Both the position numbers and the translations under genes were made by a program. A stretch of DNA of 48,677 bases from a virus, in the IMG/VR virus record IMGVR_UViG_3300044911_003254, positions 1 to 48,677 of that record. One strand, 5' to 3'. This document shows positions 15,010 through 33,865 of this stretch, one piece after another. The stretch's first letter is position 1. Every line of letters begins with the position of its first letter. The notes beneath the pieces are model-generated. The model saw only the letters and a list, made by a program, of their open reading frames with translations. It had not been told where the DNA came from and made no database searches.

Positions 15010-15010
15010 T
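14981..15010 (+). repeat. Left copy of a 30-base imperfect direct repeat flanking the HNH gene
   Basis: Bases 14981-15010 match 15661-15690 at 22 of 30 positions by eye, with no gap and in the same codon register, ending in the identical ATTGAATAA. It encodes YNFICRTIE plus stop, the end of the third tube-fold gene. Confidence 0.65.
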
Positions 15011-15689
15011 GGAAGATGTTAAGAAGATCTTAGAAAAGACAAGAAGTTATAAACTAACTTCTGAACAAACGGGTGTATCTGTAAAGAACTTAACTTCATG
15101 GAATCATCGACATTGGCACATCCAGATTACACCATGGCCCGAAGATAGAGTTCTAATGTTAACGACAAAATTCGCAACAACATCTGACAAGATGCTCGCT
15201 GGCGAACTCGGGCTATCCGACAGGCAAATCCAATCGAAAGCACGACAGTTGGGCCTCTATAAAACAGAGGGCTATTTAGATATCCTCCGTCAAGAAACAG
15301 CGAAAAATATTGCCTCAGGACCTCAGAGACACCAGTCAGAGCCAGGACAAGGACCTCCAACTAAATTTGGTCCTGAGCATCAGAATTGGATAGCAGACCG
15401 GAGCAAAGTCAAGGGACCTAGACGTAAACAATATAGGTTCTCAGTGGTGACAGCACGGCAGGTAGATTCAGAACAGCTGGGATATTGTAATAGATGTGAT
15501 ACTCTTATAGAGACAAGAAAGGAATTTGATCATATAATTCCAGTAGCAATTGGCGGCTCTAGTCTTAGAGAAAATTGTCAGATGCTATGTCAACCATGTC
15601 ATCTAGTAAAGACAAAGCAAGAACGCCAACTCACATACAACTATAACCCAATGTATAAAGACAATTTTATAGCAAGGACAATTGAATAA
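15009..15689 (+). CDS. HNH homing-type endonuclease
   Basis: A 226-residue free-standing HNH nuclease. The C-terminal HNH core is clear: Cys160-x-x-Cys163, then DHIIPVAIGG with Asp174-His175, Asn189, and LCQPCH with Cys194, Cys197 and His198 for zinc and catalysis. Before it are two predicted helix-turn-helix units, LTSEQTGVSVKNLTSW (residues 16-31) and DKMLAGELGLSDRQIQSKAR (60-79), the kind used by homing endonucleases to read their target. The gene sits between structural genes, overlaps the tube-fold gene by one base, and its last nine residues (DNFIARTIE) imitate the end of that gene (YNFICRTIE). This looks like a mobile gene inserted cleanly at the end of a conserved phage gene. The expected target is the matching site in related phages that lack it. 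Confidence 0.88.
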   Translation: MEDVKKILEKTRSYKLTSEQTGVSVKNLTSWNHRHWHIQITPWPEDRVLMLTTKFATTSDKMLAGELGLSDRQIQSKARQLGLYKTEGYLDILRQETAKNIASGPQRHQSEPGQGPPTKFGPEHQNWIADRSKVKGPRRKQYRFSVVTARQVDSEQLGYCNRCDTLIETRKEFDHIIPVAIGGSSLRENCQMLCQPCHLVKTKQERQLTYNYNPMYKDNFIARTIE

Positions 15690-15690: not shown

Positions 15691-15697
15691 GATGCCA

Positions 15698-16189
15698 ATG
15701 AAAGTAACACCGAAGACAGCAGCAGTTAGCGAATTTCTAGAAGCAGACGAGCCAGAAGTGAAGGAGCCAGAAGTAGAGGAAGAGGAAGAAATCCTCGATC
15801 CATTGGACGCCATGGCTAAGCAGTTCCCCGACGCCCCACCACGCAGAATGGTAGAGGGATGGAAGGAGCTTTATGGAGACGTCTATGCATTCGTCCCAGA
15901 CGCTACGTCTCTGTATTTGCTAAGACCATTACGCCGCATTGAACACAAGAACATTGCTAAGGAAATCAGGATGTTCTCCGAAGGTCCAACAGCAAGAGAA
16001 GATCCCGCTCTAGTTGAAGAAATGATGCATGAGAAGGTTGTCATGCTTTGCTTGCTGTACCCATCTGCCTCTCCTCAGTTCTTGACGATGAGTAAAGCTG
16101 GGCTAATGCCAACACTCTTTAACCTTGTGATGGAGCACTCGAAGTTCTTGTCACAGCAGAAAGCCCTAGAAGTTTGCTACAAGCTCTAA
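15698..16189 (+). CDS. Tail-assembly-chaperone-like protein
   Basis: A 163-residue protein. ATG codons stand at 15692 and 15698; I chose 15698 because AAGGA at 15688-15692 would be too close to the first. Residues 10-40 are an acidic linker (PEVKEPEVEEEEE). The folded part shows the usual plan of tail-assembly chaperones: a beta pair around DVYAFVPDATSLYLLRPLRR, a helix IEHKNIAKEIRMFSEG, and then EEMMHEKVVMLCLLYPSA followed by a Gly-containing turn and LMPTLFNLVMEHSKFL. Such proteins hold the tape measure in solution during tail building. Its position between tube and giant tail genes fits. No slippery heptamer is visible near its end, so the common frameshift to a longer form is not supported here. 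Confidence 0.75.
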   Translation: MKVTPKTAAVSEFLEADEPEVKEPEVEEEEEILDPLDAMAKQFPDAPPRRMVEGWKELYGDVYAFVPDATSLYLLRPLRRIEHKNIAKEIRMFSEGPTAREDPALVEEMMHEKVVMLCLLYPSASPQFLTMSKAGLMPTLFNLVMEHSKFLSQQKALEVCYKL

Positions 16190-17724: not shown

Positions 17725-20700
17725 ATGGCCACAAACACACCCATCCAAGGGATAGATAGACGTCCATTCATCGAGGTAACCGGCCACGAGCAAGCCGATT
17801 ACAATAGATGGACAAACGCACTTAAGTATGCTGCGTTTGGTTCTATTGCCATTGTGGGTGTACGGTGGGCCTCAACTACTATAAAAATCCAAGTAGATCC
17901 TAATAAATTCAAATACTTATCTGGAGGCCTAGACAAGGTTGGCCAGACACCTTGGTACGAAGTTCGGGGAAAAACAAAGCTCGCGAATGGGAAGATAGAG
18001 GCAACCGTAGGTGATTTCCTTCTCGAGGGGACTAAGTATTTCGAGGAATTATTTGGGGGCATCCCAAGAACATTCGGCCTCTATGGTGCGCTAGGCAGAC
18101 AGACCTTTACAAATGCAAACTCGAGGCTACACATCCCTGCCTCTGCTCTGGAGGGGGCTCAAAGCCATTATGAGGCGCTAATAGGAAGGAGTCTCTTCCC
18201 CGAAGAGGAGCTGCACGGATTCCAGGTAGCTCCATTCTCGGAAGCAGACCTCGAAGAATACGTTCGCTCCAAGGCTGCCCGCGAGTCATTAACTCTATCA
18301 AATCAAGAGATTAAGAGTGAAGTAGCCAAACTGGTAGAAGGTGGTATCGCCTCACCAGGCAAGGCCCCTGGTCTCTTTAGTCTAGACGAACATGGAGCCA
18401 TCAAGGAACTTGTATCTCCTGATGTAAGGATTGGTGTCCGACGTTGGGATATGGGAGGGCCAATTGATCCGGCGACAGGACACTCCAAGTACCAACAGGT
18501 AATCCGTGATATGGACACATTGTCTGAGACGATGGGCGCAAGACCCATTAGTCACACAAATGAATTTCCATACATGGTCTACAAGACTCCAGAGTCGACA
18601 AAGTTAACAGGAACAACTCGAGAACTAGTCGAAACCTTCATAGATCCTAAGCTGGTAGAGAAGGGCGCAGATTCTGTCATGGGGCCCAAGGCTAGGGCCG
18701 TAATGCAAGAGGGCGAAGTCTTTACGAAGAAGATGAGTGAACGCTATCTTCGAATGTTAGATCAGCCACTTGAGGCCATCGAAGACCTCGTTGGTAAACA
18801 GGATCTATTCGCTGGAGTCCGCAAGACAAAGAGCTATGCCTTCTTAAAGAACCTATTCGGGACTGGTGGAGACTACAGCGGTTCGACAATGGACCTCTGG
18901 GGTAGACATGCAAAGCGGATTATCCCACTCGCGCTAGGGCTCACGGCGGCCTACGAGTTAGGCAGTCGAGTGACAGAACTTGTCTCTGACAAATCTCTAG
19001 CTCAGGTCGGTGGTGCAGCAGTTGGCGCGACCCAGAGAATCTATGCGAGCATCTCGGATAAGCTGGGCCTCACAAGTCTCAACAAGGCCCAAGAGAGAGA
19101 AGCCGAGGGATCTCATAGACTACTCGGAGTGCTAGCCTTCCCCTTTGCAGGAGCTGTGACTGGGGCGACTATAGCTTCCATAACTAATCCTATTGCTGCT
19201 GAGGCGGGCAAAACCGGATGGCTTGCCGCGAGAGAAGAAGTCCACCAGCTGCCAGATGCCATGGGGGCACTCAAGAGGGATCTCCCTATAGTCGGCGACT
19301 TAAGCAAGCCTATGACTAGAGGGAGAAAGTTTGGCATCATCGGTGCTGCTATCGGTGGAGCCATGAGCTTGCCATTCCTCCTCGGAGCACTTGGCTCTAA
19401 CAAAGACTACGATGAAGTTGTCGCAGAACAACGAGGAGAAACAGAAGTAGCTGTCCGCAAGGGTGCCTTCTGGGAAATGGGCAGAACAGATATCGAAGGG
19501 GAGCAGACGCAGTATTACCGCCCAAACTGGTACGCTCGTCTAATGGATTCCCCTGCCGACGAACTTCAGTTCGGAGATTACGCAGACAAACCATTCAGCA
19601 GAATGATTAAAAGCGTTATCGATCCGTACTGGAGAGAGAAAGAACTCTACTACGAACGTCCATATCCTATCACAGGACCAGACACAAGTGGCTTCGGTCC
19701 ACTCGGCACTCTCTGGGGTATGACTATTGGACGAGTTCTCAAGCCGCCCAAGGTCATGCATGAGGATGAGGTATCTCCAGGAGGAAGAGAAGGAGTTTCT
19801 GCTGGCGAAGTAGTACTTTTTGGAAAGAACGTATCTGAGGCCCCTAGCGAGGCATTAGGCGGCCTTGGTCCGCCCGCCGCTGCATCACCCTACGACCAGT
19901 CCTTCTTGGCTGGGGAAATGGCATATAAGGCCACGGAAGCATCAGGTTTACCTGGCTTCATCTTCTCTGCTGTAAAGAAGGCCGTGACGGGGAGCAGCGA
20001 CTTCGGTGTAGACCAACCAGTTCTCGCCAGCTTTGCTGACGTGGGATCAATGAGAGATCAGTTTTGGGACTCAAATATCGGTGGTGGTTTTACCACAACA
20101 GAAGCTCTTCGACGTTTCATTCCAAAGGAGCGCTTCCAGTTGGAGAAGGTAAACCCAATTCAGAACGAAATGCCATCATGGATGCCAGGTCCTGAAAATT
20201 ATATCGACTTCAGCCATGGCGATCCATATCAGGCAATCCCGGAAGGTGAATACAGACTTCCAGGAAGCGGATACGAATCTAGATTTAAAGAACTTGCTGG
20301 TGTCAATCCTGAGGATTATCCAGACATTCATAAGTATAGAATCCTTGGCGACATCGCTCCATTCTCTCAGCAGTTCAAAGATATATCCAAGAAGATAGAA
20401 GGTCTTGCGTCATCCGGCAGTCTCTCCGAGAAAGATCTAGCTCTCTACGAAGGCACCAAGGTTGAGTTGAGAGAAAGAGAACAGAAGGTAAAGTTCAGAG
20501 AAGAGCCAGATTCTTTGATAGGGAAATATTGGGCTGGTATCACTAAAGCAGGCAGAATGAATCCAGTGGAACACCTACTGCCAATTTCTCCCGTGCATAA
20601 GTTCGCAGGTCCAGTAGACTCTATAACAGAATACGAAGACAGGAACCTGTATAGCACTAGATCGCCAAGCTGGGACAGCCCTATCGAGGACTTTATCAAG

Positions 20701-21630
20701 CCAGCATTGTACAATGCAGCTCATGCTTTTGGCTACGAAGGCATTCCAGATAGCGTCCAAGAGAAGAGAGATCTGACCGAATACTTCGATAAGCTCGAGT
20801 ACATGAAGTACAAGCGGTTAGAGGCTAATGCTAGAGGAGAAGGTGAGGGTCGGGCCGCTTTTGCTTTTGCGAGAAAAGCTGAATACACAATGTTCGGCGC
20901 TGATCCATATGCTGATATGGATACAGTGAAGAAGGTCCTTCCTCGAGAGGAACTACCATTCTTTGAACAGTTTATTACGTCTGAGTCGCCAGAGGAGAAG
21001 GGGCGTATCTTAGAGATGGTCCCGCGCTATACTCGTAAATTCTATACTGCACAGTGGCAGAAACAAATTTATGCAGGTCTAGCTGCAAAGGGGAATCTAA
21101 CCTCAGACGAACAAGCAGCTGTAATAGCAATTGAATCTTCTAGAGCCACAGAAGGCGAAGCTACAGATACAAATGCTTGGAATAGTTACATAAACAAAGT
21201 AGAGGGCGGAGACGTTCGCAGCAATACATTCCCAGACTATATTAGAGCAAAGAAGTTAGAATCCTATTTTGAAGAGTCTCCTTTTGATGCACCAAAGGCC
21301 GACTGGATTGGCTATCACCCAGCAGTAACTATGGACGATGTAAAGCTAAAGGTGGTCCAAGCTCAGGGTATGGATTTCCACGACTTTGATTTATGGGAAG
21401 GCGACGAGCGCTCTGCAGCAAGAAAGCCATATCTAAACGAAGCGGCTAGCGATCTGATGAGTCCTACGATAATAAGAGAAGATATCGTGCAGTCATTGAC
21501 TGCTCTAAGATTGAATGACTTGGACGTAGAGATTGTGCCAACATCTGGAGATCAAACTAGAATCACCTTAGATGTAGGGACTAACAGAAGAAAAGAGCTC
21601 GACAGAGAGATTAAGAGGTACGGAAGGTAA
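17725..21630 (+). CDS. Giant tail / ejection protein 1 in the tape-measure slot
   Basis: A 1301-residue protein. Several Gly/Ala-rich hydrophobic stretches could span a membrane: about residues 36-50 (AAFGSIAIVGVRWAS), 399-414 (IIPLALGLTAAYELG), 466-495 (LLGVLAFPFAGAVTGA) and 537-556 (GIIGAAIGGAMSLPFLLGAL). After these comes a block rich in Trp, Tyr and Pro (YYRPNWYARLMDSP, DPYWREKELYYERPYPITGP, then GRVLKPPKVMH; residues about 590-680), and then an acidic, mixed region to the end. It lacks the long continuous coiled coil of a standard tape measure. It overlaps the next giant gene by one base (TAATG). From position I infer a protein packed in the tail lumen that enters the envelope on ejection, working with the polymerase-like and hub proteins encoded next. 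Confidence 0.75.
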   Translation: MATNTPIQGIDRRPFIEVTGHEQADYNRWTNALKYAAFGSIAIVGVRWASTTIKIQVDPNKFKYLSGGLDKVGQTPWYEVRGKTKLANGKIEATVGDFLLEGTKYFEELFGGIPRTFGLYGALGRQTFTNANSRLHIPASALEGAQSHYEALIGRSLFPEEELHGFQVAPFSEADLEEYVRSKAARESLTLSNQEIKSEVAKLVEGGIASPGKAPGLFSLDEHGAIKELVSPDVRIGVRRWDMGGPIDPATGHSKYQQVIRDMDTLSETMGARPISHTNEFPYMVYKTPESTKLTGTTRELVETFIDPKLVEKGADSVMGPKARAVMQEGEVFTKKMSERYLRMLDQPLEAIEDLVGKQDLFAGVRKTKSYAFLKNLFGTGGDYSGSTMDLWGRHAKRIIPLALGLTAAYELGSRVTELVSDKSLAQVGGAAVGATQRIYASISDKLGLTSLNKAQEREAEGSHRLLGVLAFPFAGAVTGATIASITNPIAAEAGKTGWLAAREEVHQLPDAMGALKRDLPIVGDLSKPMTRGRKFGIIGAAIGGAMSLPFLLGALGSNKDYDEVVAEQRGETEVAVRKGAFWEMGRTDIEGEQTQYYRPNWYARLMDSPADELQFGDYADKPFSRMIKSVIDPYWREKELYYERPYPITGPDTSGFGPLGTLWGMTIGRVLKPPKVMHEDEVSPGGREGVSAGEVVLFGKNVSEAPSEALGGLGPPAAASPYDQSFLAGEMAYKATEASGLPGFIFSAVKKAVTGSSDFGVDQPVLASFADVGSMRDQFWDSNIGGGFTTTEALRRFIPKERFQLEKVNPIQNEMPSWMPGPENYIDFSHGDPYQAIPEGEYRLPGSGYESRFKELAGVNPEDYPDIHKYRILGDIAPFSQQFKDISKKIEGLASSGSLSEKDLALYEGTKVELREREQKVKFREEPDSLIGKYWAGITKAGRMNPVEHLLPISPVHKFAGPVDSITEYEDRNLYSTRSPSWDSPIEDFIKPALYNAAHAFGYEGIPDSVQEKRDLTEYFDKLEYMKYKRLEANARGEGEGRAAFAFARKAEYTMFGADPYADMDTVKKVLPREELPFFEQFITSESPEEKGRILEMVPRYTRKFYTAQWQKQIYAGLAAKGNLTSDEQAAVIAIESSRATEGEATDTNAWNSYINKVEGGDVRSNTFPDYIRAKKLESYFEESPFDAPKADWIGYHPAVTMDDVKLKVVQAQGMDFHDFDLWEGDERSAARKPYLNEAASDLMSPTIIREDIVQSLTALRLNDLDVEIVPTSGDQTRITLDVGTNRRKELDREIKRYGR

Positions 21631-24600
21631 TGGCAAATAATGATTTCTTTGGGGACTATGTAGCACCGGGAATTATGATTGCTGGTGCGGGTGTAACTGC
21701 ATATCGCACATATAGAGATATTTCTGCGAAAGGAACACTCACGGCTCCATGGAGAGCCCAGAAAGAAGCAAGCGGAATGTACAAGAAGATTATGGAAGCT
21801 CGAGGCAACCGTAACTTCAGAACCGCAGAACAAGTCGCGTCCCTCTTCTATCCGGGAGCTGGTGCAGAAGGTGTAGCAGATGCGATGGGGCTCATCCGTG
21901 GCTCAACAGTGAAGGGGCTAATACGTTCGTATGGCTTACAGAAGACCGCAATCGGTCTCGGCATAGACCTAGAAAACCCAGCATCGATAACCAGAGAGCA
22001 GCTCACTTCACTGATAGGTGGCAGCGCAGAAAACCCACTTGGCACAAGATTCTACAGAGAGCACCTAGAAAGAGTCGCCTCTTATAACAAACTAAATCTG
22101 ATCACACCAACTGGGCTTCAGGGGGCTTCCCAAAGAGGCGAAGCAGCATTAAAGAAACTTGCCACTGCGTATGGACAGATCGAATCAGAAGGCGGAGTCC
22201 TCAAGACTGTAAAGCAGCTCAAGGAAGAGGGTGGGTTCGCCTTGTCGTCTATAACAGGAATAGAGACACCAGTCTCTTACACAAAGGGCAAGGCGCAACT
22301 AGAAAAGGCCTTTGCCGGCAGAGAGGGCCTTACTAGCCGCATCCAACAGCTCTATGAGCGGGTCCAACAGATCAACTCTACCCCTGGTCTAAGTAACAAA
22401 CAGAAGATGTCCATGAAGCTTATCACCTTAGAAGAAGGTGGCAAGATGTTCCATACTGGCGTTCGAATCACCTCAAACAAGAGAGTCCTAAATCTCTATC
22501 TGGAAGACGAAGACCATATTCTTAGATGGGGAAAGAACGGCAAGGTCAGAGGAGTCGCGAAGTATGTAGGCGCCGCGGATATCAAGACAAGAATCCTAAA
22601 GAACGACTACAAAGATCCATTCGAACTAGTGCGCCGCACTGATGAGTATTTCTTAGACTGGGCTCTTGAAGGAGGTCTGGAGGATTTTAGAAAGGGCTCT
22701 GTCAAGGGCGGGGAGTTCCTCAAGAGGTTTCTTGCCCGTACAAGAGAAGATTATAGTAAGCCTGTGATGATGTTGACGGCAAACCAGGCACTGAACAGAA
22801 GATACGCCAATCAGCTTGTGCTGGCAGATTCTGGATTAGCTCCAAACGAATTCCAAGTTCTTAAGAATCAGCTAATTGATAGGGGCATAATGGACCCAAC
22901 CGCAGGGTTGAGCGCAAACCAAGCAACAAGCATGAATGTGGCGATGCCCACAAGGACCGGCCATATCTATGGCGCGGATCCTCTTGGTCTGACTGGCGAC
23001 AACAAGAGTGTTGCGCAGACACTCCGGGACAAGGTTGTTACAAGCACTGGGAATAAATTCCGAAGCACCCCAGCTCTATTCGGAGTAAGGGAAACTGTTG
23101 CCGGCGATATCAAGACCCGATTGAGGACCTACTCAATGCCAGACGCTGTAGCCAACACACTATTTTCCATGACAAATAGAGCAGATCTACATCTTCATGA
23201 AGACGAATTTGTTCTGGCAGATCGTATTGGCTATAAGGAGAATAAGTCACTTGGCGCCTTTGGCCCAGACAGTCCGGTAAACGCCAAGATCGCAAAGCTC
23301 TCTAAAGCAGAGGGCGGGGTACTGGGAGATTTGGCTAATCATTTAAGAGAGGGTCTCTCTGGTGATTATCTCCAAGAAATGCTCGATTATAGAGAGCAGC
23401 TCAGAAACTATCTGGACCCGGCAGACACAGGTTCACAAGCCTTCAAGCAATTCATAGAGTTGGACGAGGCTCTTAAGACCATTACATTAAACCCTGGTGA
23501 CTTTGTAGGCATTGGGGCAGATGGCAGGATGACTACCATCCCCGACAATGCAAGAGCCTTCTACTTGACTGAATTAAAAGAAGACTTGGTCAATGGAGAG
23601 CCCACCATACAACTTGCTGGCGAGATGCACAGAGACCTCACAAGACAAGACAAGCTGATGGCCTTCAAGGGAATTATCAAAGGAGAGACAGACTGGCGAT
23701 ACGCTCAGAAGCTTAGTGCTTTATACGAGGCCAATAAGAACGACCCGAGACTCATCGCTGCACTGGACCCAGACAAAATAGATGTTGATGCAATCAGGAA
23801 AATATTTGCTCCAGACTTAGAGCAGATCAACAAGGCAGAGGCCGCCTTCTTGCAGTCTGCTGGTCCAGAAGACCGATTCCATTTAGAAGATGCATTTCGG
23901 GGGACTACTGCGGATAAACGGTGGAGGGCTGCCGTAAAAGAAGTCCGGGGGACACAGCTCCTAACCGTCCAGGGCACAAAGAAGATCGGCGATGCAAACA
24001 TGGCTAATCTTACTCATGGCCTAATGGAAGAACTATTTGATGAAGCGCTGACTATTAAAAATTCAGGCCTACAAAAGTTAGAAGACAACATGTTCAAGTT
24101 AACTCTTGGAGAAGATGTCTTACAAAGTCCAGACGCCAGAAAGATACGTGATCAGGCATTACGCAGATTGGAGCTGAAACATGCAGCTCTATACGAACGT
24201 CTCAATTCTATCAGGGAGCTTGGCTATACTATCAATCCAGAAACAGGTACGCCCCAGATTATCGATAATGGGAAGTACAATCTAGCAGACCGCTTCGAAA
24301 AGGCTGTCGGACTGACAATGGAATCGCCAAGCAGAAAAGGTCGCTGGGCGCCAGATAGATTCTTCAAGGATCTAGCCGTCGCTAAAGATGTAGCAGTATT
24401 TGGCATCCATGAAGCTGCTATCAAGCAAGGAGCTAATGCTTCATTGTTGGAAGCTGGCTACATCTACCGACAGCTTCATGAGGCAGGTGCTTTTAAAGAA
24501 GGCAAAGCAAGAGAACTATGGGGAGCAACTTTAGAGGGCCAGTTAAAATACGGAGCATTAAACCGCACAGTAGGCGTTCACGGTAGTCCAGCTAAAACTG

Positions 24601-27209
24601 GTGGTTCAGGTCGCCAGGGCTCATTCAACTTGCAGACTCTAGGCCACACCCAAGCTCAAGGTGGTGTTGTCGCAGATATGGGTATCGAGCTAGCTGGACG
24701 TCTGACTTCTGACAAGGCAGACGAGGCATCCGAAATCTTCAAGAGATCTGCATACTTTGACTCAAAGGAGAATCTCAAGGCCATCTCGATTAACGAGTTG
24801 GCGGGAAGCGACCTTCCCGGTGGTGTCATCTCAGATCTATTTTCCCCAAACCAAGAACAGAGAGATGAGGCATTTAGGGCGGTAAGAGAGAAATTCGGAG
24901 CAGCAGATTCTGGCGGACTGATCTTTGGGACTGGCTCGGAAACAAATAAGTACATCTATCACCCTCAGGCCATCAGCACACATACAGGAGGATTCACAAC
25001 TCCTTCAGGTATCTACAGGCCAACAGCAATCGATGAAGCTCTGCAAGGGCTTATCATGGATGCCCGAATGGGGAATCGAGATACAACAAGGAGGATCGCA
25101 GCATATGGTGATGCACTTGCTGAAATTACTGTAGGCCGCACCCAGGCTCCCGCCAAAGCCTTTTCAGGACATGTCCAAGGGTCCTTGCGTCTTCAGGCTC
25201 AGTCAAATGCCAATCCAGATCTCTTCTCTGGGCTCGGAGATTACATCAATGAGAACTATGCAAATAAGTTAGGAATCAGAGAGAACTTAGTCGACCAGAT
25301 GGTCGAGGATCTTGGCATACAGGGAGATCGCGATTCAATCATTGCTCAGCTGAGAAAAGGCGAGCTAGCGTCACTGGTGCACCGTTCCCCTGACACGGAA
25401 ATGCATCGTATCTCATCGGTCCAGATGTTCAGCATCGATAACGTTCTAGAGAAGTACGCAACCAAAATCTCGGCTGGTAAGACCACCCCAGAACTAATGC
25501 ATGCACTTTGGGGCCTAAGCGAAAACCGACATGATAAATTAGCAGTCAAATTAAATGAGTTAGAGAAAACACTACAAGAACAAAATGAACAGATAAGGTC
25601 AAACGTCAAGGGCACCCTCGTCGACCTAGAGGGGCACCACAGGGCAGCAACTCTATCTGGCAGGGGGAATAAGAAGAGGAGAGCAAATGCAAAGCAAGCC
25701 TTAAAGGCCGAGGTTGCTCGGCTTAATGCCACCCACGGGTACAATATCCAATACACATCTAAGGGCGGACTTATCCGTAAGTCTTTCCCTCAGGGGGACC
25801 TTATTGATATTGAAGCCAGAAAGAAGCAGCTGATCACAGCCGAATTAGCAGACTATTACAAGAAGCAACATGAGGGGACATCTGTCTGGTTGCCCAAGCA
25901 AATCGAACAAGTCCTCGGCGCCGACTATGACGACGACCAAATCAGCATCTTCATGGCGAAGGACAAGAGCATTCAGGGGCGGCTTCAGGAACGTGCAGCC
26001 TACCAAGAACAGCTCCTAGGAGCTTGGCAGAAGTCTAAGCAAGTTGCTGGCAAGGGGGCAGAAGATCGACTTGTCGAGTCAATGAGATCGACTGGTGGGC
26101 TCTCAGCAGAGCAGAAATTAGCCGAAGAAGACTTCTTGTATAAAGTAAGACAGGAAGAACTCTATAAGGCCCTTAAAGCAAAGGACCCATCAGTAATAAC
26201 ATCAGAAATGATGGAGCAAAATAGCGAACTCTGGAAGATGAGAGCACGGGCCAAAGATCAGATGGCCCAGCTGGAAAAGGCTAGAATTGGCAGCATGTCC
26301 AATGCAACAGATTTCGCAAGAGCAATGCATAGAAGGACAGCAGGAACTACTTCGGCTGGAGCCAACTCAAGGCTCTTTGCAGAGATGCTAATGGGCATCA
26401 TGCCAGAAAGCATTTTGAAAGTACGTCAGGTTCCTATGCATCAGGTTGCAGATGTTGGCCGGCATGCTGCTTACATGCAAGAAGCACTGCGTGGAAAGTT
26501 CGGTTCTTCTGACCATGCCATACAGCAATTCCAAGAGCACTTTAGGGCTCTACATGGTGTCAAGCCGAACACTATCATCGACGAGATAGCTTCGCCAGAA
26601 CATATCAGGATGGTTCTCCAGGCTGGCGAAAAGGCAGCAGCGAGTAAAGAAGAGTTCAGCCTACTGACTGCTCTCAAGAATGAAACTGCAACAAATGAAG
26701 CTAGAACAGCAGCCATGAATGCAGCTAACAATGGAATGGCTTCAAGCATGCAGCACGAGCTCTATCGAGAGGCCACAAAAGGCGTGGTTCCAGAAATGTC
26801 GCCACTACAAAAAAACATTAAGAATACAGCAGCCTCATTCTCTGATGCATATGATATCATGCTAAGGCACAAGAAGCCTCTGATGCTTGGTGCAGGTTTG
26901 GCAATTGCGACCTCAATGTTACTCGGCTCCCCTGGTAGTATATCTTCAGAAGAAGCTGATGCCGCAGGAGCAAGGCATTCTACCGGAGACCCAACCACTC
27001 CACCAACAGATATGGGACACTCCGCAAGAGTGTCCACAGGAACCGGCAGGGCAGTGAGAGTCAGAGGTAGCTCAAGTGGAGATATTGATCCGAGTGTAAT
27101 TGCAGCAAAACTAGGACAGCGTTTTCCGGGATCAAGCGTGAGCTTCACGGTCAACGATTATCGGGAACGAATCAACCAAGAATACATTAGGAAGAAACTA
27201 GATAGATGA
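21630..27209 (+). CDS. Giant virion protein with a single-chain RNA polymerase core
   Basis: An 1859-residue protein carrying, in order, active-site motifs of the two large subunits of cellular-type RNA polymerase. Beta-like: HEDEFVLADR (His523 to Arg532) resembles FEDSILVSER of E. coli beta, with Glu524-Asp525; NPGD at 621-624 starts a barrel as GD-x-LVG does; DKLMAFKG gives Lys675 and Lys680 in place of the catalytic lysines of DKMAGRHGNKG. Beta-prime-like: HRSPDTEMHRISSVQMF (1251-1267) matches NRAPTLHRLGIQAF, and GADYDDDQISIF (1430-1441) matches NADFDGDQMAVH with Asp1432, Asp1434 and Asp1436 as metal ligands. A likely bridge-helix region follows. Hydrophobic segments lie at about 10-26 and 1750-1770. 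Its place among tail genes suggests that it is packaged and injected, as known for crAss-like phage gp66. Catalysis is untested. Confidence 0.82.
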   Translation: MANNDFFGDYVAPGIMIAGAGVTAYRTYRDISAKGTLTAPWRAQKEASGMYKKIMEARGNRNFRTAEQVASLFYPGAGAEGVADAMGLIRGSTVKGLIRSYGLQKTAIGLGIDLENPASITREQLTSLIGGSAENPLGTRFYREHLERVASYNKLNLITPTGLQGASQRGEAALKKLATAYGQIESEGGVLKTVKQLKEEGGFALSSITGIETPVSYTKGKAQLEKAFAGREGLTSRIQQLYERVQQINSTPGLSNKQKMSMKLITLEEGGKMFHTGVRITSNKRVLNLYLEDEDHILRWGKNGKVRGVAKYVGAADIKTRILKNDYKDPFELVRRTDEYFLDWALEGGLEDFRKGSVKGGEFLKRFLARTREDYSKPVMMLTANQALNRRYANQLVLADSGLAPNEFQVLKNQLIDRGIMDPTAGLSANQATSMNVAMPTRTGHIYGADPLGLTGDNKSVAQTLRDKVVTSTGNKFRSTPALFGVRETVAGDIKTRLRTYSMPDAVANTLFSMTNRADLHLHEDEFVLADRIGYKENKSLGAFGPDSPVNAKIAKLSKAEGGVLGDLANHLREGLSGDYLQEMLDYREQLRNYLDPADTGSQAFKQFIELDEALKTITLNPGDFVGIGADGRMTTIPDNARAFYLTELKEDLVNGEPTIQLAGEMHRDLTRQDKLMAFKGIIKGETDWRYAQKLSALYEANKNDPRLIAALDPDKIDVDAIRKIFAPDLEQINKAEAAFLQSAGPEDRFHLEDAFRGTTADKRWRAAVKEVRGTQLLTVQGTKKIGDANMANLTHGLMEELFDEALTIKNSGLQKLEDNMFKLTLGEDVLQSPDARKIRDQALRRLELKHAALYERLNSIRELGYTINPETGTPQIIDNGKYNLADRFEKAVGLTMESPSRKGRWAPDRFFKDLAVAKDVAVFGIHEAAIKQGANASLLEAGYIYRQLHEAGAFKEGKARELWGATLEGQLKYGALNRTVGVHGSPAKTGGSGRQGSFNLQTLGHTQAQGGVVADMGIELAGRLTSDKADEASEIFKRSAYFDSKENLKAISINELAGSDLPGGVISDLFSPNQEQRDEAFRAVREKFGAADSGGLIFGTGSETNKYIYHPQAISTHTGGFTTPSGIYRPTAIDEALQGLIMDARMGNRDTTRRIAAYGDALAEITVGRTQAPAKAFSGHVQGSLRLQAQSNANPDLFSGLGDYINENYANKLGIRENLVDQMVEDLGIQGDRDSIIAQLRKGELASLVHRSPDTEMHRISSVQMFSIDNVLEKYATKISAGKTTPELMHALWGLSENRHDKLAVKLNELEKTLQEQNEQIRSNVKGTLVDLEGHHRAATLSGRGNKKRRANAKQALKAEVARLNATHGYNIQYTSKGGLIRKSFPQGDLIDIEARKKQLITAELADYYKKQHEGTSVWLPKQIEQVLGADYDDDQISIFMAKDKSIQGRLQERAAYQEQLLGAWQKSKQVAGKGAEDRLVESMRSTGGLSAEQKLAEEDFLYKVRQEELYKALKAKDPSVITSEMMEQNSELWKMRARAKDQMAQLEKARIGSMSNATDFARAMHRRTAGTTSAGANSRLFAEMLMGIMPESILKVRQVPMHQVADVGRHAAYMQEALRGKFGSSDHAIQQFQEHFRALHGVKPNTIIDEIASPEHIRMVLQAGEKAAASKEEFSLLTALKNETATNEARTAAMNAANNGMASSMQHELYREATKGVVPEMSPLQKNIKNTAASFSDAYDIMLRHKKPLMLGAGLAIATSMLLGSPGSISSEEADAAGARHSTGDPTTPPTDMGHSARVSTGTGRAVRVRGSSSGDIDPSVIAAKLGQRFPGSSVSFTVNDYRERINQEYIRKKLDR

Positions 27210-30200
27210 TTTTTCCAAGACAATCCACATCAACGACACCCCCAGAAGAAACAGCAAAGCCAGCAGAGACTATCAACTGGGAGAATGATCAGCCCCTCTT
27301 CGTAGATCCAGAAAGCTATGAGTTGCCAACGCGAGGAGCTGTCACTAGAGGTGTATTCGAAATCAACGGAATAAGATTTCCTATCCCCCCTCAAGGCATA
27401 TCTATTACTGAACAGAATCAGAACTTTAATTTTGAGACTCTGCGAACGCGAGAATCGACAAAGATCCGTTCTGGGCACGGAAGAATCGACATTACCGTAA
27501 CAGCACTTTTCACCGGCAACACAACTGGAAGTGTTGAATTGGTCAACGGCATCGTAGCTCCCGCAGATCCGTTGGCGGCAATCAACGAAACGCTCATGCC
27601 AATTCTTTACAGCCTGAAGAAGATGCCACTCTGCTTCCTCGATAATGAATTGTTAAGGACCACGTTGCCAGTGGTCCCCGGCGAAGTTATCGGAGCATTC
27701 GTACGTTCTGTCAATATCGGGACAGTGCCAGGGATGCCATATACCCTCTCTGCCGAATTCCAGTTCGTATGGTTCAACCACCGCCCATTTACACCAAGAC
27801 TTCGTTTTAGAAAGGAATGGTATGATCCGGCTAATACGGTAGATCAATTTACTAGTCTCTATCATTCTGTCTCGCGAGAGGACTCTGAAGGTGGTGGAGC
27901 AGAGGACGACAGCGGCCGCTTCTTGTTTATCAAGGACTATGGGCATCCAGGCACTGTATTTAATGCCACAGCCATACATACGTGGACAGAAAACATTCGA
28001 GAGGCTCGTCCGCTACTTGAATGGCTCTGGCCTTATCGCTACAAGTCAACCAACCGCGCGATCCGTCTTGAAGACCAGCCAGATGGAAGAAGCGAAAAGG
28101 AGCGCCCATATACCGAAAGAGCGTTAGCGGCAATGCCTCCTTTCAATCTTGAGAGTTTTGATCACAATGTAGCTTTCCAGTTTATGATTCCACAAGCGCC
28201 AGGGCTAATAGACACGCCAGAAGGCAAAAAGTCTTTAACAGACATTATTAGCAAATTCACCCCGGCGCAGAAGGTAATTCCGACTCCAGCTCCAAATCCC
28301 TCGACCACACATGCACCACCTGCTGGTGATAACACGTCTATCATCAATTGGTGGAAGCCTCACGTAAGCGGTCCATCAGGGGAAGATGTTATCACCCTAT
28401 ACAAGAACCCAAGTTCTGGACGGGTTCTGAATCCAAGCGAGAAAGCTGTGGCTAGCCTCATCTATACTCGTATGATAGATGAAGGATATACGCCAGCCTT
28501 TGCTATTGCGGCGATAGTCCAAGCCTCATATGAGTCAGGGCTTAATCCTACAGCAGCTCATAAGAGTGGCATCGCTCAAGGTCTATTCCAACTAAATCGC
28601 TACGTCGATAGGAAAGGAAAGTCGCGAGGGCTAGGAGCTTCTGATCCAAAGTTCATGGGAGGGCGTATTGCAGGCTCCCCAACAGAGGCAGCAGCTGAGC
28701 CCGACAAGTATTACAATGCAGGTGATGCTAACATTAACATCTCCAGAATCATTTCTCTTATCAGAGTTAATAAAGACCTACGAAATGCGGCTAAGGACAA
28801 GAACCTCTCCCCGGCAGAGTGTTTCGAAAAATTCTTTTGGTCTGGATTGGGTGCAGGCTATCGCCAGGTCAATAAAGCAAGAGATGAAGCAGAGCTAGCC
28901 AAGTACGAAAACCTATATGCAGGAAGAATCGCCCAAGCTTCTAGGCGCATTCCTGGATGGGACAGCAAAGCATTTAATTCTGGTAGCAGGTTACCAGGAA
29001 GGATTACAGCTTCTGAACTAGATATTGCGGTAGGACAGACCCCACTGGAACAGCGCTTCAGCGAACTATACAACTCAGAAGAAGCTCTCCGTATAGCGAT
29101 GGAGAGGCATCTCCCTGAGGCTGGCATGATGCCGACACAGGAAGAGCTCGTTCAGCTCACAAGAGATTTCGCTTCTACCACCCCTGATAAGCAGCTATCT
29201 GCTGAGCTATTAGCCCTAGCCACAGCAGTCTCGCAAAACGTATTGATTGTGAAGCATGCTATCACAGGTAAGATCGCTCAATTGGGGTTCCACGAAATAG
29301 ATATATCTGAATACCTAAATGCGGTTGTTCCAATGAATCTTGCTGTCACATTCGGCACAAATTTTGTGATGATGCCGTTAGATGGTCACAGGTTCGCAAC
29401 AACGCAATATGTTGGCGGCCAACAAACAGCAGGGACCATAAGCTTCAGGGCGTTAACTCCAATTGGTCGACAGTTCGTCAGAGATTTCCAATCCATGGTC
29501 AATGCCTATGAAACTTCTGCAATACATTTTAGAGAATTCGCAAAACGTAGAGGCATTGAAGTATTCAATCCACTACTGAATTCCATGAATATCCAAAGCA
29601 TTCTTCTCGAAACGATAAATGTAGACACGGTCACAGGATCTCCTGATGACCTCAACGTCGTGATGAGAATCGTAGACAACACAATAGTTGAAGAAGGACA
29701 AAGGCCCATTCTTGCAGTCGAGGAAGTCGGCTTTGACACAGTGGGCGCACAAGTCTTAGACCTCCTCATCAAGAAGAAGTATGTAGGAGTCACGTACGAA
29801 GCGTTTGTTCAGTCAGGGCATCAAGAACTCTCGAATAAAGTGCTAGCTAGCTTTACCGGGGGATCAACACTCCCGGACTCGAACAATATCGCAACAGAAG
29901 TATATGAAGATGGGTTGATAGTTACGGGCCACAGTGCACCACAGAAAGGGGAAAAGGGGCATAGCTCTCTACTCGAAGATTTGCTAAGTGAGCGTAGCTC
30001 GCTTGTCATGGATAGCATCCCTCTCCTCCGACGGATAAAACTTCCCGATGGTCGATACAAATTTTTCTATAAAGACGGAAAAACTACGATCATATCTAAT
30101 AGCGAATCCGATCCGCTTGCTTTTCCAGAAAGAAACACTGTGCCTGTGAGCCGCACAGAGGAAGTATTGGAGCATACGGTCGCTGTGAAATTTAGCGCGC

Positions 30201-33200
30201 TAAATTACGGCCCTAGTGATGTCGCAAAAACCGCTGTTGACGCATTAGTGGAGCTATCTGGGACAAGGTATACACTTGCAGCAAATGCTGGACTTGATGC
30301 AGAGGTCATTAGTTCGGCTCAATATAGTGGAGAAATTGGAAGGGCCATCCCTGCATCATCCGAAATGTCGAGAGCCACATTCCAAGTCCTATATGGAGAC
30401 AAGACTCATAGAGGGCTGATAGCCTCAGAAAAATTCAACAAGTGGAGCACCAACCATGGACGGAAACTTTTAAGTGCCCTGGGGCGATCTGCTGGCGGCA
30501 ATGGGGATCCAGACTTCGTATCGCTATTCGCCTCATCAATGCGAGGGGCCTCTTACCAGAAAACCAATCAAGCTTATCCGGACTTACTTCTTCCGCCGAA
30601 CCCAATATCTGGACTCTGCATTGATACAAATCCAGACTTCTTCTTGGTCAACGAATCTGACGTGAAGCTATGTCAGCTGGAGACTTTGAAAATCATTCAT
30701 GGTGCAGACACTGCAGCAACAGGAGTGAAGGGGATTGGCTTCGCCAAGGGAAGCAACGCAATTGATTATGGTCACGAGAACTTCAAAGATATCTATGGAG
30801 TCGGATCTGGCACAGGACTCCAGGCTGCAAATATAGGTAGAGACAATATTTATACTGGAACCGGTGATGTAAGAACTGCGGTTAATAACGGAGTATTCAA
30901 AACGAAAGTAGACGGCAAACCAGAAAGCAGGATTAGCGCGACGCCAGAAACGAATTATACGTTAGCTTCTCTGCCTGGAAGAGAAGCTAAGCTCCAAAAC
31001 AATATTTCGGAAAGAAGAACGAGGGAGAATTATGATCGTAAGCTCTCTATGGAAGTCCATTATTCTGAATCTGCTTATAAAGAAACCTTAGAAGAGGGCT
31101 TCTTCATTGGCACCTCTGACGGGGAACAGTTAGAAAATCTCAATAAGATACAACATGTCTTCAACCCGAAGACATACAACGAGATGTTCAAGACTTTTTG
31201 CGACAGGTATAAGAGCGATCACTATGCAGTCCGACGAGCCTTCCCTACATTCAAGGTATTCTTTGTCGAGGAAGACGGGGAGTCCGACTTCAGTACGCCA
31301 GAAGGATTGGGTGGAGAGATAATAAATAAACTTGCATCCACACCGTCACTCGATGACTTTTATGGAGTCAATGCCATCAAAGAAATCAGTATCGTCCACA
31401 ACAAGGAGAGCGCCGTATCCACATGTGTAATTCAGGTGCTTGACCTTGATGGCGTCCTCTACAATAGAAAGTTCGACGCCGGCAATGGTGGAGGACCGAT
31501 TAAAGATCTAACTGGAACTATTAACTCAGACGGAAGTAGGGTCCCAGAAAACAAACTGGTAGACGACAGTAACCCCTTCTATAGCACAATGATCAAAGAG
31601 GGAATGAAGGTCATCGTCAAGTTCGGATACTGTAATGATCCTACGGAGTTAGATACAATCTTTATTGGGCAGGTAGCTCAGTTCGAAGGAAACCAAGTCA
31701 TAACAATTGTATGCCAGAGCTATGGCGCAGAATTGGTCGCCAAAACATTTGGCACAGACCCTACCAAGAACGTCGACCTATGGAACACGACCACGGCCGA
31801 TCTTGTGCACGACACTATGGACAGAGAAGAAGTACGCCACTTTGGACGTTGGCGCCTCTCCGACATAGATCTTACTGGCGAGCTTTTCGGCCACCAAAAA
31901 CTCCGCCCAGACGGACGAGTCAAAACAGTATGGACATGGAGACCAAGCGTAGTAGACGACAATATCTTCATTCCCCCTGTAGAAGAGTATTCAAGTTTAT
32001 GGGAGCGACTTTGGGGGGACCTTCACTATGTATTCTGGAATACAACTATATGGGACGTATTCAAAGAGATGGAACTTCGTCATCCAGATTATGTAGCTTA
32101 TCCGGTCCCATATGGCCAAGGTGCGGATGCCCGAATGACAATGTTCTTCGGGCATCCAGATATGGAATACCTATCTAGACCAGCATTGGATAAGTTCGAA
32201 AGAGATGGTGAATTCACAGCAGGTAATGTCAGTCAGATGGAACTAAGAGATGCTCTCCTGAAGGTCAACAGTAAGCTGAATTACAACAGCCCCCCTGTCA
32301 GTGAGCAGGTCGCTCTGGCAAGGGGCATGGAAGAGACCCTACGTTTAACAGAGGCCGCTCCAGAGAATGTGGACAACAACCTCAGGGCCCTAGCCAAATC
32401 GATTGGAGCAAAAGAGGAGCTGTTTGTTGCCTGGAAGCCGAACGGGAAGAGGGCATTCGCAGAAATCAATAGACTAGAGCAAGAGGCAAGAGCAAAGGCC
32501 GAATCCGAAAAGGGCATGAGGCTGAATAAGGACTATTCCAGGATCGACAGTGATGCCTTCTATAGGACTACTGTTGCTTGGCAGGGGACTCGTTTGCGCC
32601 CATTCAGAAACTATGAGCTTGTGACAAGCCTGCATGACATCCTGAAGAACAATATCCGTACCGATATTTCAGAGTCATACAATAGCGTCGAACTGCACTA
32701 CACAAATGCAGGCATCTTTAGCTCTGTTAATTTCGGCACCTTTGATCAGAAGAGCCCAGAAACACTGGTCGTTAATGCTGATGACAATATCAAAGAGCAT
32801 CACATTAGAAGAACAATTGAAGCATGGCCGAACTGCACTTCTACGAACCTCGCAAGACGCTATGCTTCTCAGCTACTGGCTAACTCATTAAAGAAAAACT
32901 ATAGAGGCGAGCTTGTAATTCTGGGTAAGCCGCACTTGAAACCATACGACATTGTCTGGCTGAACGATACATATAGTGATATGGCAGGTCCCATTGAGAT
33001 AGAAGAGGTCGTTCATACATTCTCTCAAGAGACCGGGCTCATCACAGAGATCGTCCCGAATATGATTGTGTCTGTTGCTGGGGACGCCAAAATGTTGATG
33101 GTAGATGCTATTGGTAAGTTCTTTGATACAACAGCGAAGGACTTTACCACTGGTGCAATGCTGGGAGTGAGTGTTGGGCTTACCATAGGTGGTGGAGCTC

Positions 33201-33865
33201 TTGCCTACAATGCAGCCAAGAGTTTCAACAAAGCAGCTGCATTCGCAACCAATACAGGACAGAAAGCTTTGGATGCTGCTGAGAAAGCAGGAAAGTTCTT
33301 CAATGTCCTATCAGAAGAAGGTAAGAGACAGGCTGCTAATCTCACGGCAAAGGTGAGGAGCATGGGGCCAAAGGCGGAGAATATGGGGGTAAACTCGAAT
33401 GCAGCTGCTGCTAATAGTCTCAGACCAAGAGGCACTGGAGCATCCACATTAACAGCAGGAGCTCTTCAGATAGCCACGGACACCGTTATGATAGAATCAG
33501 GTCAAGGAGGCATCCCAATTAATGGAGAATCAGTCGCAGGCTTCGCTACAGGGCTTGGGGCCTCAGGTCTTGCGGCATTCTTGCCTATAACAGTAGGCGT
33601 ATCGGCAATCGTCGCAGGAGGCCTTCTGTACAAATTCCTAAAGTACAATACGACAAGAGAGCCTATTATTATCACACCTTTGATAAAAGATGGTAAGCCA
33701 TACATAATTGGCCTCGAAGGCTTCGAGACAGATGGCCTTGTTTGCACAAATTTTGATGGAGCAAAGAAGACTGCCGATGAAAAGTGGAAGTACTTTATTG
33801 ACGGAATCGATGAGGCGAACAATATCGTGGCTGCTGGTTGGGCGAACTTCTGGGCAGGTGAATGA
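27206..33865 (+). CDS. Giant tail hub protein with lysozyme domain and membrane segments
   Basis: A 2219-residue multidomain protein. Residues 45-270 are a hub-like beta domain (FEINGIRFPIPPQGISITEQ). Residues about 405-585 are a phage-tail lysozyme domain: IYTRMIDEGYTPAFAIAAIV, then ASYESGLNP with the likely catalytic Glu443, then SGIAQGLFQLNRY. A second hub-like region at about 700-830 has VPMNLAVTFGTNFVMMPLDG. From about 1340 a gp27-like hub region appears (FKVFFVEEDGESDF, VIQVLDLDGVLYN, MKVIVKFGYCNDPTEL, IFIGQVAQFEGNQVITIVCQ). Hydrophobic stretches at about 1985-2005 and 2112-2145 (GLTIGGGALAYNAA; LPITVGVSAIVAGGLLYKFL) could insert in a membrane. Its start overlaps the polymerase gene by ATGA. 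Expected job: central hub at the tail tip that digests peptidoglycan. The fusion of hub, lysozyme and C-terminal membrane segments is unusual. Confidence 0.85.
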   Translation: MIFPRQSTSTTPPEETAKPAETINWENDQPLFVDPESYELPTRGAVTRGVFEINGIRFPIPPQGISITEQNQNFNFETLRTRESTKIRSGHGRIDITVTALFTGNTTGSVELVNGIVAPADPLAAINETLMPILYSLKKMPLCFLDNELLRTTLPVVPGEVIGAFVRSVNIGTVPGMPYTLSAEFQFVWFNHRPFTPRLRFRKEWYDPANTVDQFTSLYHSVSREDSEGGGAEDDSGRFLFIKDYGHPGTVFNATAIHTWTENIREARPLLEWLWPYRYKSTNRAIRLEDQPDGRSEKERPYTERALAAMPPFNLESFDHNVAFQFMIPQAPGLIDTPEGKKSLTDIISKFTPAQKVIPTPAPNPSTTHAPPAGDNTSIINWWKPHVSGPSGEDVITLYKNPSSGRVLNPSEKAVASLIYTRMIDEGYTPAFAIAAIVQASYESGLNPTAAHKSGIAQGLFQLNRYVDRKGKSRGLGASDPKFMGGRIAGSPTEAAAEPDKYYNAGDANINISRIISLIRVNKDLRNAAKDKNLSPAECFEKFFWSGLGAGYRQVNKARDEAELAKYENLYAGRIAQASRRIPGWDSKAFNSGSRLPGRITASELDIAVGQTPLEQRFSELYNSEEALRIAMERHLPEAGMMPTQEELVQLTRDFASTTPDKQLSAELLALATAVSQNVLIVKHAITGKIAQLGFHEIDISEYLNAVVPMNLAVTFGTNFVMMPLDGHRFATTQYVGGQQTAGTISFRALTPIGRQFVRDFQSMVNAYETSAIHFREFAKRRGIEVFNPLLNSMNIQSILLETINVDTVTGSPDDLNVVMRIVDNTIVEEGQRPILAVEEVGFDTVGAQVLDLLIKKKYVGVTYEAFVQSGHQELSNKVLASFTGGSTLPDSNNIATEVYEDGLIVTGHSAPQKGEKGHSSLLEDLLSERSSLVMDSIPLLRRIKLPDGRYKFFYKDGKTTIISNSESDPLAFPERNTVPVSRTEEVLEHTVAVKFSALNYGPSDVAKTAVDALVELSGTRYTLAANAGLDAEVISSAQYSGEIGRAIPASSEMSRATFQVLYGDKTHRGLIASEKFNKWSTNHGRKLLSALGRSAGGNGDPDFVSLFASSMRGASYQKTNQAYPDLLLPPNPISGLCIDTNPDFFLVNESDVKLCQLETLKIIHGADTAATGVKGIGFAKGSNAIDYGHENFKDIYGVGSGTGLQAANIGRDNIYTGTGDVRTAVNNGVFKTKVDGKPESRISATPETNYTLASLPGREAKLQNNISERRTRENYDRKLSMEVHYSESAYKETLEEGFFIGTSDGEQLENLNKIQHVFNPKTYNEMFKTFCDRYKSDHYAVRRAFPTFKVFFVEEDGESDFSTPEGLGGEIINKLASTPSLDDFYGVNAIKEISIVHNKESAVSTCVIQVLDLDGVLYNRKFDAGNGGGPIKDLTGTINSDGSRVPENKLVDDSNPFYSTMIKEGMKVIVKFGYCNDPTELDTIFIGQVAQFEGNQVITIVCQSYGAELVAKTFGTDPTKNVDLWNTTTADLVHDTMDREEVRHFGRWRLSDIDLTGELFGHQKLRPDGRVKTVWTWRPSVVDDNIFIPPVEEYSSLWERLWGDLHYVFWNTTIWDVFKEMELRHPDYVAYPVPYGQGADARMTMFFGHPDMEYLSRPALDKFERDGEFTAGNVSQMELRDALLKVNSKLNYNSPPVSEQVALARGMEETLRLTEAAPENVDNNLRALAKSIGAKEELFVAWKPNGKRAFAEINRLEQEARAKAESEKGMRLNKDYSRIDSDAFYRTTVAWQGTRLRPFRNYELVTSLHDILKNNIRTDISESYNSVELHYTNAGIFSSVNFGTFDQKSPETLVVNADDNIKEHHIRRTIEAWPNCTSTNLARRYASQLLANSLKKNYRGELVILGKPHLKPYDIVWLNDTYSDMAGPIEIEEVVHTFSQETGLITEIVPNMIVSVAGDAKMLMVDAIGKFFDTTAKDFTTGAMLGVSVGLTIGGGALAYNAAKSFNKAAAFATNTGQKALDAAEKAGKFFNVLSEEGKRQAANLTAKVRSMGPKAENMGVNSNAAAANSLRPRGTGASTLTAGALQIATDTVMIESGQGGIPINGESVAGFATGLGASGLAAFLPITVGVSAIVAGGLLYKFLKYNTTREPIIITPLIKDGKPYIIGLEGFETDGLVCTNFDGAKKTADEKWKYFIDGIDEANNIVAAGWANFWAGE

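Follow-up and report, generated by a model that had tools for sequence, protein, structure and literature searches.

Does a phage with a contractile tail encode an RNA polymerase (RNAP) in the gene that fills its tape-measure slot? The question is raised by the gene at 21630-27209 of the IMG/VR virus record IMGVR_UViG_3300044911_003254. The record, analysed over its full 48,677 bases and called the window below, carries head, tail and baseplate genes on the + strand. A sequence-only reading had named polymerase motifs in the 1859-amino acid (aa) protein of this gene, and both the open reading frame (ORF) on the + strand and every residue named were recovered at the same positions in the translation. 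We conclude that the protein is very probably a single-chain, cellular-type double-barrel RNAP, and we consider it likely that the gene encodes a single-chain double-psi-beta-barrel RNAP which the tail carries and ejects together with the DNA and which then transcribes the first genes. The polymerase assignment is supported by the conservation of catalytic residues, a profile comparison with shuffled controls, the confinement of PF00623 to the slot gene, and fold matches.

Collection of slot proteins

Direct searches with the slot protein were fruitless: tblastn of the whole window protein against 50,697 phage records gave no match, a single-protein scan of viral contigs returned only a contig identical to the window, an exact DNA search for the eight residues around DYDDD found no match, and a scan of genome contigs found no relative. 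We, therefore, gathered relatives via the upstream neighbour. Its alignment gave 54 syntenic viral loci, and the next gene of each was taken as the slot gene. We compared 41 distinct slot proteins of at least 900 aa, L063 and a protein of L049 among them; in L049, one gene separates the neighbour from the gene with the motif. Of the 41, 20, the window protein included, form one blast-connected group. All but one of the 19 relatives in this group (18) came through the neighbouring gene; L063 was found with the window family itself, by patterns including the motif. The closest relatives of the window protein are L008 (44% identity) and L009/L010 (30%). L063 shares 34% identity over the C-terminal half and 26% over the N-terminal half, and L011 shares 23% across the last 469 columns.

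Two further contigs from other metagenomes, one holding L002/L006 and one L007, match the window proteins at 100% identity in the parts covered, which indicates the same phage in several samples. In phage MTATph1, the slot protein (L004:18513-22442) is without the polymerase motif but has an RNase_T exonuclease domain (E 5.4e-5). About 100 of its residues align with the N-terminal part of gp034 from Bacillus phage KLEB27-3 (E 8e-8), and a transposase gene follows this slot gene.

Conserved residues of the slot protein

The residues named in the sequence-only reading are E524-D525, G623-D624 (621-624 is NPGD), K675 and K680, followed on the beta' side by HRSP (1251-1254), HR (1259-1260), Q1265, and DYDDD (1432-1436). 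K-x-F-x(n)-K, R-x-P, and D-x-D-x-D have the order and local sequence that are typical of barrels B and A in two-barrel RNAPs. E. coli and jumbo-phage beta' sequences served for comparison. Both motif groups lie within one uninterrupted 1859-aa ORF and not in separate genes as in the multisubunit RNAPs of jumbo phages; hence, a multisubunit enzyme was rejected. Counts below refer to the 20-protein alignment.

K675 and K680: These are the predicted catalytic lysines of barrel B. Each is found in 19 of the 20 slot proteins.

G627: This glycine is just past the GD of the earlier reading and is kept in 17/20.

R1252 and P1254: Both belong to the R-x-P motif of barrel A. The arginine occurs in 19/20 and the proline in 20/20.

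D1432, D1434, and D1436: The three aspartates of DxDxD, the predicted metal-binding triad, are present in all 20 proteins.

K1550 and G1554: These residues (16/20 and 18/20) lie after barrel A, and the stretch 1548-1562 around them is predicted to be the bridge-helix region.

C-terminal tail: About 60 residues are similar among many slot proteins. This fits the 0305phi8-36 tape measure, of which only the last 60 residues align with the BtI1 counterpart in the comparison cited here (PMC2147016). The tail is a probable virion anchor.

Other alignments gave a similar picture. Default MAFFT on 17 of the 20 (L016, L018, and L021, which have large inserts, were excluded) kept G627, P1254, and the three aspartates invariant, with K675 and R1252 at 90% or above and K680 unlisted. 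When 23 crops were aligned, with L086 excluded as well, the matching glycine, first lysine, proline, and three aspartates were invariant, and the second lysine and the arginine were nearly so. In an enlarged set of 24, in which the same three insert-bearing members were swapped for seven found later, the aspartates, P1254, K675, and G627 are present in 24/24, R1252 in 23/24, and K680 in 22/24; some of the additions were found via motif-containing patterns and are thus not independent. Among slot proteins that share 10-43% identity with the window crop, catalytic positions account for most of the invariant columns.

DxDxD lies at 60-85% of the length in 32 of 38 unique complete slot proteins, compared with 0 of 42 upstream-gene and 3 of 30 downstream-gene proteins; anywhere in the protein, the values are 32/38, 10/42, and 10/30. 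Identical sequences were counted once, and the 30 downstream controls include proteins cut by the locus end. L007, L015, L047, L053, and L054 contribute no slot gene to this count, that of L002, L006, L043, L044, L045, and L048 is cut by the DNA end, and that of L049 encodes less than 900 aa.

Comparison with RNA polymerase families

A beta' profile was built from E. coli beta' and four jumbo-phage beta' proteins. Using hhalign, the 20-protein profile matched it with a probability of 86%, an E-value of 4.8e-6, and a score of 60.2. The controls remained far lower: 30 block-shuffled profiles gave a mean of 16.0 (standard deviation 2.1, maximum 21.1), and the reversed profile gave 15.2. Against residues 1-1250 of gp96 from phage P23-45, the score was 36.1 (shuffled profiles: mean 17.1, maximum 26.1) at a probability of only 7%, and the alignment was placed on the RNP motif of gp96. 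The five-protein subfamily around the window protein reached beta' with 45% (E 2e-4, on DxDxD) and, in another alignment, with 31% (E 5e-4); KLEB27-3 gp034 alone gave 76% (E 2.4e-5). Matches to the 20-protein profile were obtained for L012/L025 (99.6%), L034 (95%), and ME3/L033 (86%). The lineages lacking DxDxD and MTATph1 matched neither beta' nor the 20-protein profile (0.2% or less).

Over 15 chosen phage records, PF00623 occurs at exactly three places with E<=1, and all are inside the slot gene (KLEB27-3, E 7e-5; L027 record, 0.004; L050 record, 0.017); none is above the Pfam cut-off. A Pfam scan of 23 cropped homologues found PF00623 in 1/23 (E 0.25); a search by sequence families would, therefore, hardly have revealed the polymerase on its own. 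The 23-crop profile was also run against all PDB sequences. Three had E<10 (0.47-2.2), all of them phage-type RNAP subunits aligned at DxDxD, namely PHIKZ055 and two chains named RNAP beta' subunit. A four-homologue profile matched only fumarate hydratases among PDB sequences (E 0.08-0.5).

With the 86-aa motif region of KLEB27-3 gp034, tblastn against the 50,697 phage records listed 14 matches excluding itself, of which 9 are annotated as RNAP subunits and 5 as hypothetical proteins. E-values range from 0.09 to 7, and several matches come from closely related phages. The individual matches are weak; their concentration is not. The same beta' motif region is matched (E 1) by a hypothetical protein of about 1500 aa from Vibrio phage D69 (OZ195729, L074:1-3402), which, judged by sequence, may be another single-chain RNAP.

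Structure models

The compact homologue L030 was modeled over residues 500-1262 with a predicted local distance difference test (pLDDT) of 79.3 and a predicted template modeling score (pTM) of 0.55. Foldseek found 48 PDB chains at E<=0.001 with this model, all of them RNA polymerases, and the best 50 of 602 matches at E<=10 are all RNA polymerase chains. With VIA-align, the L030 model matched yeast Pol II (Z 11.1, root-mean-square deviation (rmsd) 5.2, 306 aligned), QDE-1 (Z 10.8, rmsd 5.8, 315 aligned), and maize RDR2 (Z 10.5, rmsd 4.3, 285 aligned). The QDE-1 and RDR2 alignments begin at model residues 90-93, a few positions short of the two lysines (99, 106), and run to the end. Hence, the first barrel B strands are outside the matches listed.

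For the window protein, RNAP chains make up 48 of the best 50 of 168 Foldseek matches at E<=10, and the best VIA-align match is E. coli beta' (Z 7.8, rmsd 3.9, 214 aligned, residues 992-1658). Among viral models, the best match covers 802 residues of an ME3 protein (E 2.8e-4), which would fit half of the 1603-aa ME3 slot protein. A beta'-type fold around the active site is thus predicted by both models, and barrel B strands are predicted at the expected place in both. The fold is predicted with good confidence in the homologue and moderate confidence in the window protein.

Position in the tail module

The coordinates are compiled in Table 1. The sheath and baseplate wedge genes identify the window as part of a contractile-tailed phage. 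Blast comparison with phage ME3 shows a common gene order of major capsid, sheath, tube proteins, chaperonin, large virion-protein gene, slot gene, and hub. The location between chaperonin-like and hub genes that the sequence-only reading had described is confirmed by this synteny, and the gene lies in the tape-measure slot of a tail module, as would be expected of a virion RNAP of the P23-45 gp96 kind, with chaperonin, upstream virion-protein gene, slot gene, and hub ordered as in ME3. The annotation notes of ME3 link these genes to Bacillus phage 0305phi8-36, and the window phage is related to both. In the 0305phi8-36 analysis cited here, orf146, which precedes the hub gene orf147, was assigned as the tape measure (PMC2147016). 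Judged by its position, the gene at 21630-27209 probably corresponds to orf146; the gp-number match comes from the ME3 annotation notes.

In the named examples ME3 and KLEB27-3, the slot protein is annotated as hypothetical or structural. KLEB27-3 gp034, the counterpart of the window slot protein, is called a "structural protein" in its record annotation, and we found no KLEB27-3 paper in the open PubMed Central literature. The hydrophobic segments described earlier proved weak, as no 19-residue window of the 1859-aa protein reaches a Kyte-Doolittle mean of 1.6; the homologue L063 reaches 1.71 near its C-terminus.

Table 1 Features of the slot gene and its surroundings in the window (residue numbers refer to the 1859-aa protein)
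Feature	Position	Strand	Evidence
CDS (coding sequence), 1859 aa, predicted single-chain two-barrel RNA polymerase, tape-measure (0305phi8-36 gp146-like) slot	21630..27209	+	ORF, alignment, profile, fold comparison
E524-D525, beta-like ED of the sequence-only reading	23199..23204	+	present, not conserved
Predicted barrel B (beta-like), residues ~617-700: G627, predicted strands within 625-668, K675, K680	23478..23729	+	alignments, model
K675 to K680, predicted catalytic lysines	23652..23669	+	19/20 each; 24/24 and 22/24
Residues 1251-1265, HRSP...HR...Q, beta'-side R-x-P motif	25380..25424	+	R1252 19/20, P1254 20/20
Barrel A residues 1420-1445, WLPK..E..LGADYDDDQISIF; cf. E. coli beta' LHPL....NADFDGDQM	25887..25964	+	
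DYDDD 1432-1436, predicted metal-binding DxDxD triad	25923..25937	+	20/20; 24/24
Residues 1548-1562, LEKARIGSMSNATDF, after barrel A	26271..26315	+	K1550 16/20, G1554 18/20
Conserved C-terminal tail, ..VNDYRERINQEYIRKKLDR	27021..27206	+	similar tails in many slot proteins
Tail sheath (contractile tail)	9867..12356	+	PHROG tail sheath E 2.6e-52; ME3 blast E 8e-29
Tail chaperonin-like protein, matches ME3_33	15692..16189	+	blast E 1e-16
Upstream neighbour, 1301 aa, matches ME3_35 (0305phi8-36 virion-protein homologue)	17725..21630	+	blast E 3e-68
Downstream neighbour, 2219 aa, baseplate hub, matches ME3_37	27206..33865	+	blast E 9e-21
Baseplate wedge subunit	35075..36292	+	

Two neighbouring features were noted in passing. 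An HNH endonuclease-like ORF (15009-15689), possibly a homing element, lies within the tail operon, after the ORF at 13771 and before the chaperonin-like gene. Residues 416-466 of the hub protein resemble a phage tail lysozyme (Pfam E 4e-5, below the cut-off).

Evidence against the assignment and rival explanations

Several results speak against a polymerase. Pfam and PHROG scans of the window protein gave no match (Pfam E<=1), and PF00623 and PF00562 found nothing in the window; both were found in all 14 control genomes. Tested alone against beta', DxDxD lineages scored low (ME3 3.2%, L050 group 1.9%, L012 group 1.1%, L049 0.5%, L034 0.4%, L040 and L041 0.1%). When the 60 aa around DYDDD were compared with phages by tblastn, no polymerase was found and the one match (E 3) is a hypothetical protein. 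The profile-profile comparison suggested in the sequence-only reading held for beta', where the score exceeds the shuffled maximum, but hhalign to E. coli beta alone found nothing. Therefore, the case for barrel B is made by the conservation of lysines and glycine, the predicted strands, and the partial overlap of QDE-1 and RDR2 with the homologue. The evidence for barrel A is stronger.

Two of the five motifs originally read as polymerase-like are not shared by the family. E524 is found in 3/20 and D525 in 6/20, and E524-D525 was rejected as a beta "ED" family feature; D624 is found in 2/20, and Q1265, on the beta' side, in 8/20. The lysines, R-x-P, and DxDxD are family signatures, whereas "ED" and "GD" are not, although G627 is. 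Six of the 38 slot proteins (L004 of MTATph1, L035, L038, L055, L056, and L059) lack DxDxD, so such a phage can do without the motif or carries it elsewhere.

The predicted structures, also suggested beforehand, have weak points. RNAP chains dominate the Foldseek lists of both models, but the model of window residues 470-1658 has a pLDDT of 59.6 and a pTM of 0.39, and none of 350,542 PDB chains matched it at E<=0.001. Its low-rmsd RNAP rows in VIA-align cover the beta' half only, and the same list contains unrelated helical proteins with Z up to 7.1; the VIA-align match of the window model alone would, therefore, not carry the case. The Foldseek TM-scores of L030 are low (0.15-0.20) because the alignments run across domains.

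Could the motifs be chance matches in a long helical tail protein without a polymerase fold? The window protein alone has no family match, and its own model is of moderate confidence. Such a coincidence would have to produce invariant catalytic columns, a score beyond the shuffled profiles, whole-record family matches confined to the slot gene, and the fold matches, and we regard it as highly improbable. A true homologue could still be a degenerate fossil, retained for structure in a polypeptide that is chiefly a tape-measure protein. The slot is the one in which gp146 of 0305phi8-36 was assigned as tape measure in the analysis cited here (PMC2147016), the sequences diverge fast, and the motif is missing in 6/38 slot proteins. 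A fossil would, however, be expected to lose its aspartates and lysines early, whereas the columns that stay invariant at 10-43% identity are mainly catalytic. Hence, this explanation appears unlikely.

About equally unlikely, and if anything a shade less so, is an active two-barrel RNAP that works outside the virion, a late-expressed enzyme merely located in the tail operon. In its favour, 0305phi8-36 has a separate RNAP gene, orf99, among its non-structure genes according to the gene assignments cited here (PMC2147016); non-virion polymerases are, therefore, an option for phages of this lineage. The slot gene, however, is wedged among tail-protein genes in a conserved order, its KLEB27-3 counterpart is annotated as structural, three relatives have a separate PF05183 RNAP in addition, and the P23-45 precedent is a virion protein. 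We, therefore, keep to a probably tail-borne RNAP; that it is a single-chain double-psi-barrel enzyme encoded in the tape-measure slot of a sheathed-tail phage is the proposal of the sequence-only reading that sequence comparison and predicted structures support.

Proposed function and significance

The polymerase core is predicted at about residues 600-1600 and takes up roughly half or more of the 1859-aa protein. In the arrangement that we propose, barrel B (about 617-700, with K675 and K680) and barrel A (about 1250-1445) would be joined by a connector of about 550 residues. Barrel A would contribute Arg1252-x-Pro1254, Asp1432, Asp1434, and Asp1436 would bind the catalytic metals, and the helices after barrel A would fit the bridge-helix and trigger region. 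The conserved C-terminal tail would seat the polymerase in the tail of the phage, at the place that was assigned to the tape measure in 0305phi8-36. Upon tail contraction, the polymerase would leave the virion together with the DNA and remain close to the entry point; there, it could transcribe the first phage genes independently of the host enzyme. Homology, the conservation of catalytic residues, the predicted fold, and the position in a contractile-tail module are direct results of the computation; virion assembly, ejection, DNA-templated activity, and early-gene specificity are proposed by analogy with P23-45 gp96.

The slot protein may not be the only polymerase in some relatives. A separate PF05183 (QDE-1/YonO-like) RNAP gene was found in 3 of 10 records searched (L050, L051, and L052) and in none of the other 7, including ME3 and KLEB27-3. 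These three records of about 210 kb (G005, G006, and G007) have slot proteins of 3134-3258 aa with DFDGD. We lean slightly towards a general scheme in which this deeply diverged lineage of contractile-tailed, mostly large phages (ME3-like, KLEB27-3-like, and probably 0305phi8-36-like) starts infection with a single-chain slot-protein RNAP that passes out of the tail tube before or together with the genome, coupling tail ejection to transcription, and in which some members follow with a second, QDE-1-like non-virion polymerase. Judged by its relatives, 0305phi8-36 gp146 may also hold a polymerase core.

If the scheme is true, the P23-45 arrangement, with a cellular-type RNAP in a tail protein and not in the head, would be common in a broad group of sheathed-tail phages, beyond a few Thermus siphophages. 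Questions that would become testable are how transcription starts independently of the host enzyme, by what means a folded polymerase gets through a contractile tail tube, and how polymerases with two barrels in a single chain diversified. The scheme would also add many deeply diverged polymerases for comparison with QDE-1, YonO, and the cellular enzymes.

Comparison with known systems

The sequence-only reading had called a single-chain RNAP in a sheathed tail little described. In the open PubMed Central literature, we found no RNAP described in the tail module of this contractile-tailed lineage, and the survey within the P23-45 paper (Supplementary Data 4) may list some. Judged by titles and the beginnings of abstracts in the same literature, the P23-45 paper stands alone in reporting an RNAP within a tape-measure protein; that reading did not name this precedent. 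An RNAP in a tape-measure gene is thus known from P23-45, and the sheathed-tail phage is a new setting.

P23-45 gp96: In the sections of PMC10770324 cited here, this protein of a Thermus siphophage is a tape-measure-fused RNAP that is present in virions and transcribes pre-early genes. It has 5002 aa, the RNAP is in the N-terminal part (shortest active fragment 327-1124), and the tail is non-contractile. The same sections list tape-measure-protein RNAPs for P23-45 and three related phages and virion RNAPs for crAss-like and N4-related phages. The predicted window enzyme likewise is a single-chain two-barrel RNAP in a tape-measure gene, and the RNP motif and DFDGD of gp96 (FRNPVMGHGG...GVDFDGD) resemble L021 and L027. 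In contrast to gp96, the motifs of the window protein are at residues 675-1562 of 1859, so that the RNAP is not the N-terminal portion of a far longer tape-measure protein, the phage has a sheathed tail, and a connector of about 550 residues separates the barrels. Activity and virion presence are proven for gp96, whereas those of the window protein are predicted. The slot protein and separate PF05183 RNAP of L050-L052 resemble the virion/non-virion pair of P23-45.

phi14:2 gp077: This protein, which we take to be the gp66 of the literature by its size and motif, is a giant single-chain two-barrel RNAP of a crAss-like phage. It is also annotated as a structural protein, and its DxDxD has a non-Gly fourth residue as well (DFDID). 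The profile similarity is not significant (0.1%), and the best weak alignment of the 20-protein profile is on DxDxD. The phage is a podovirus and not contractile-tailed.

phiKZ/AR9-type RNAPs: These multisubunit enzymes show the same order of beta' motifs. They are split over several genes, whereas the window protein is encoded by one gene in the tail module. According to the part of PMC13282480 cited here, multisubunit virion RNAPs occur in phiKZ-like phages, and phiKZ packs its virion RNAP in the head.

QDE-1, plant RDR, and YonO-like RNAPs: These are single chains with two barrels in the same order. The family (PF05183) includes orf99 of 0305phi8-36. The window protein has no PF05183 match (Pfam E<=1), but the model of its homologue L030 aligns to QDE-1 and maize RDR2.

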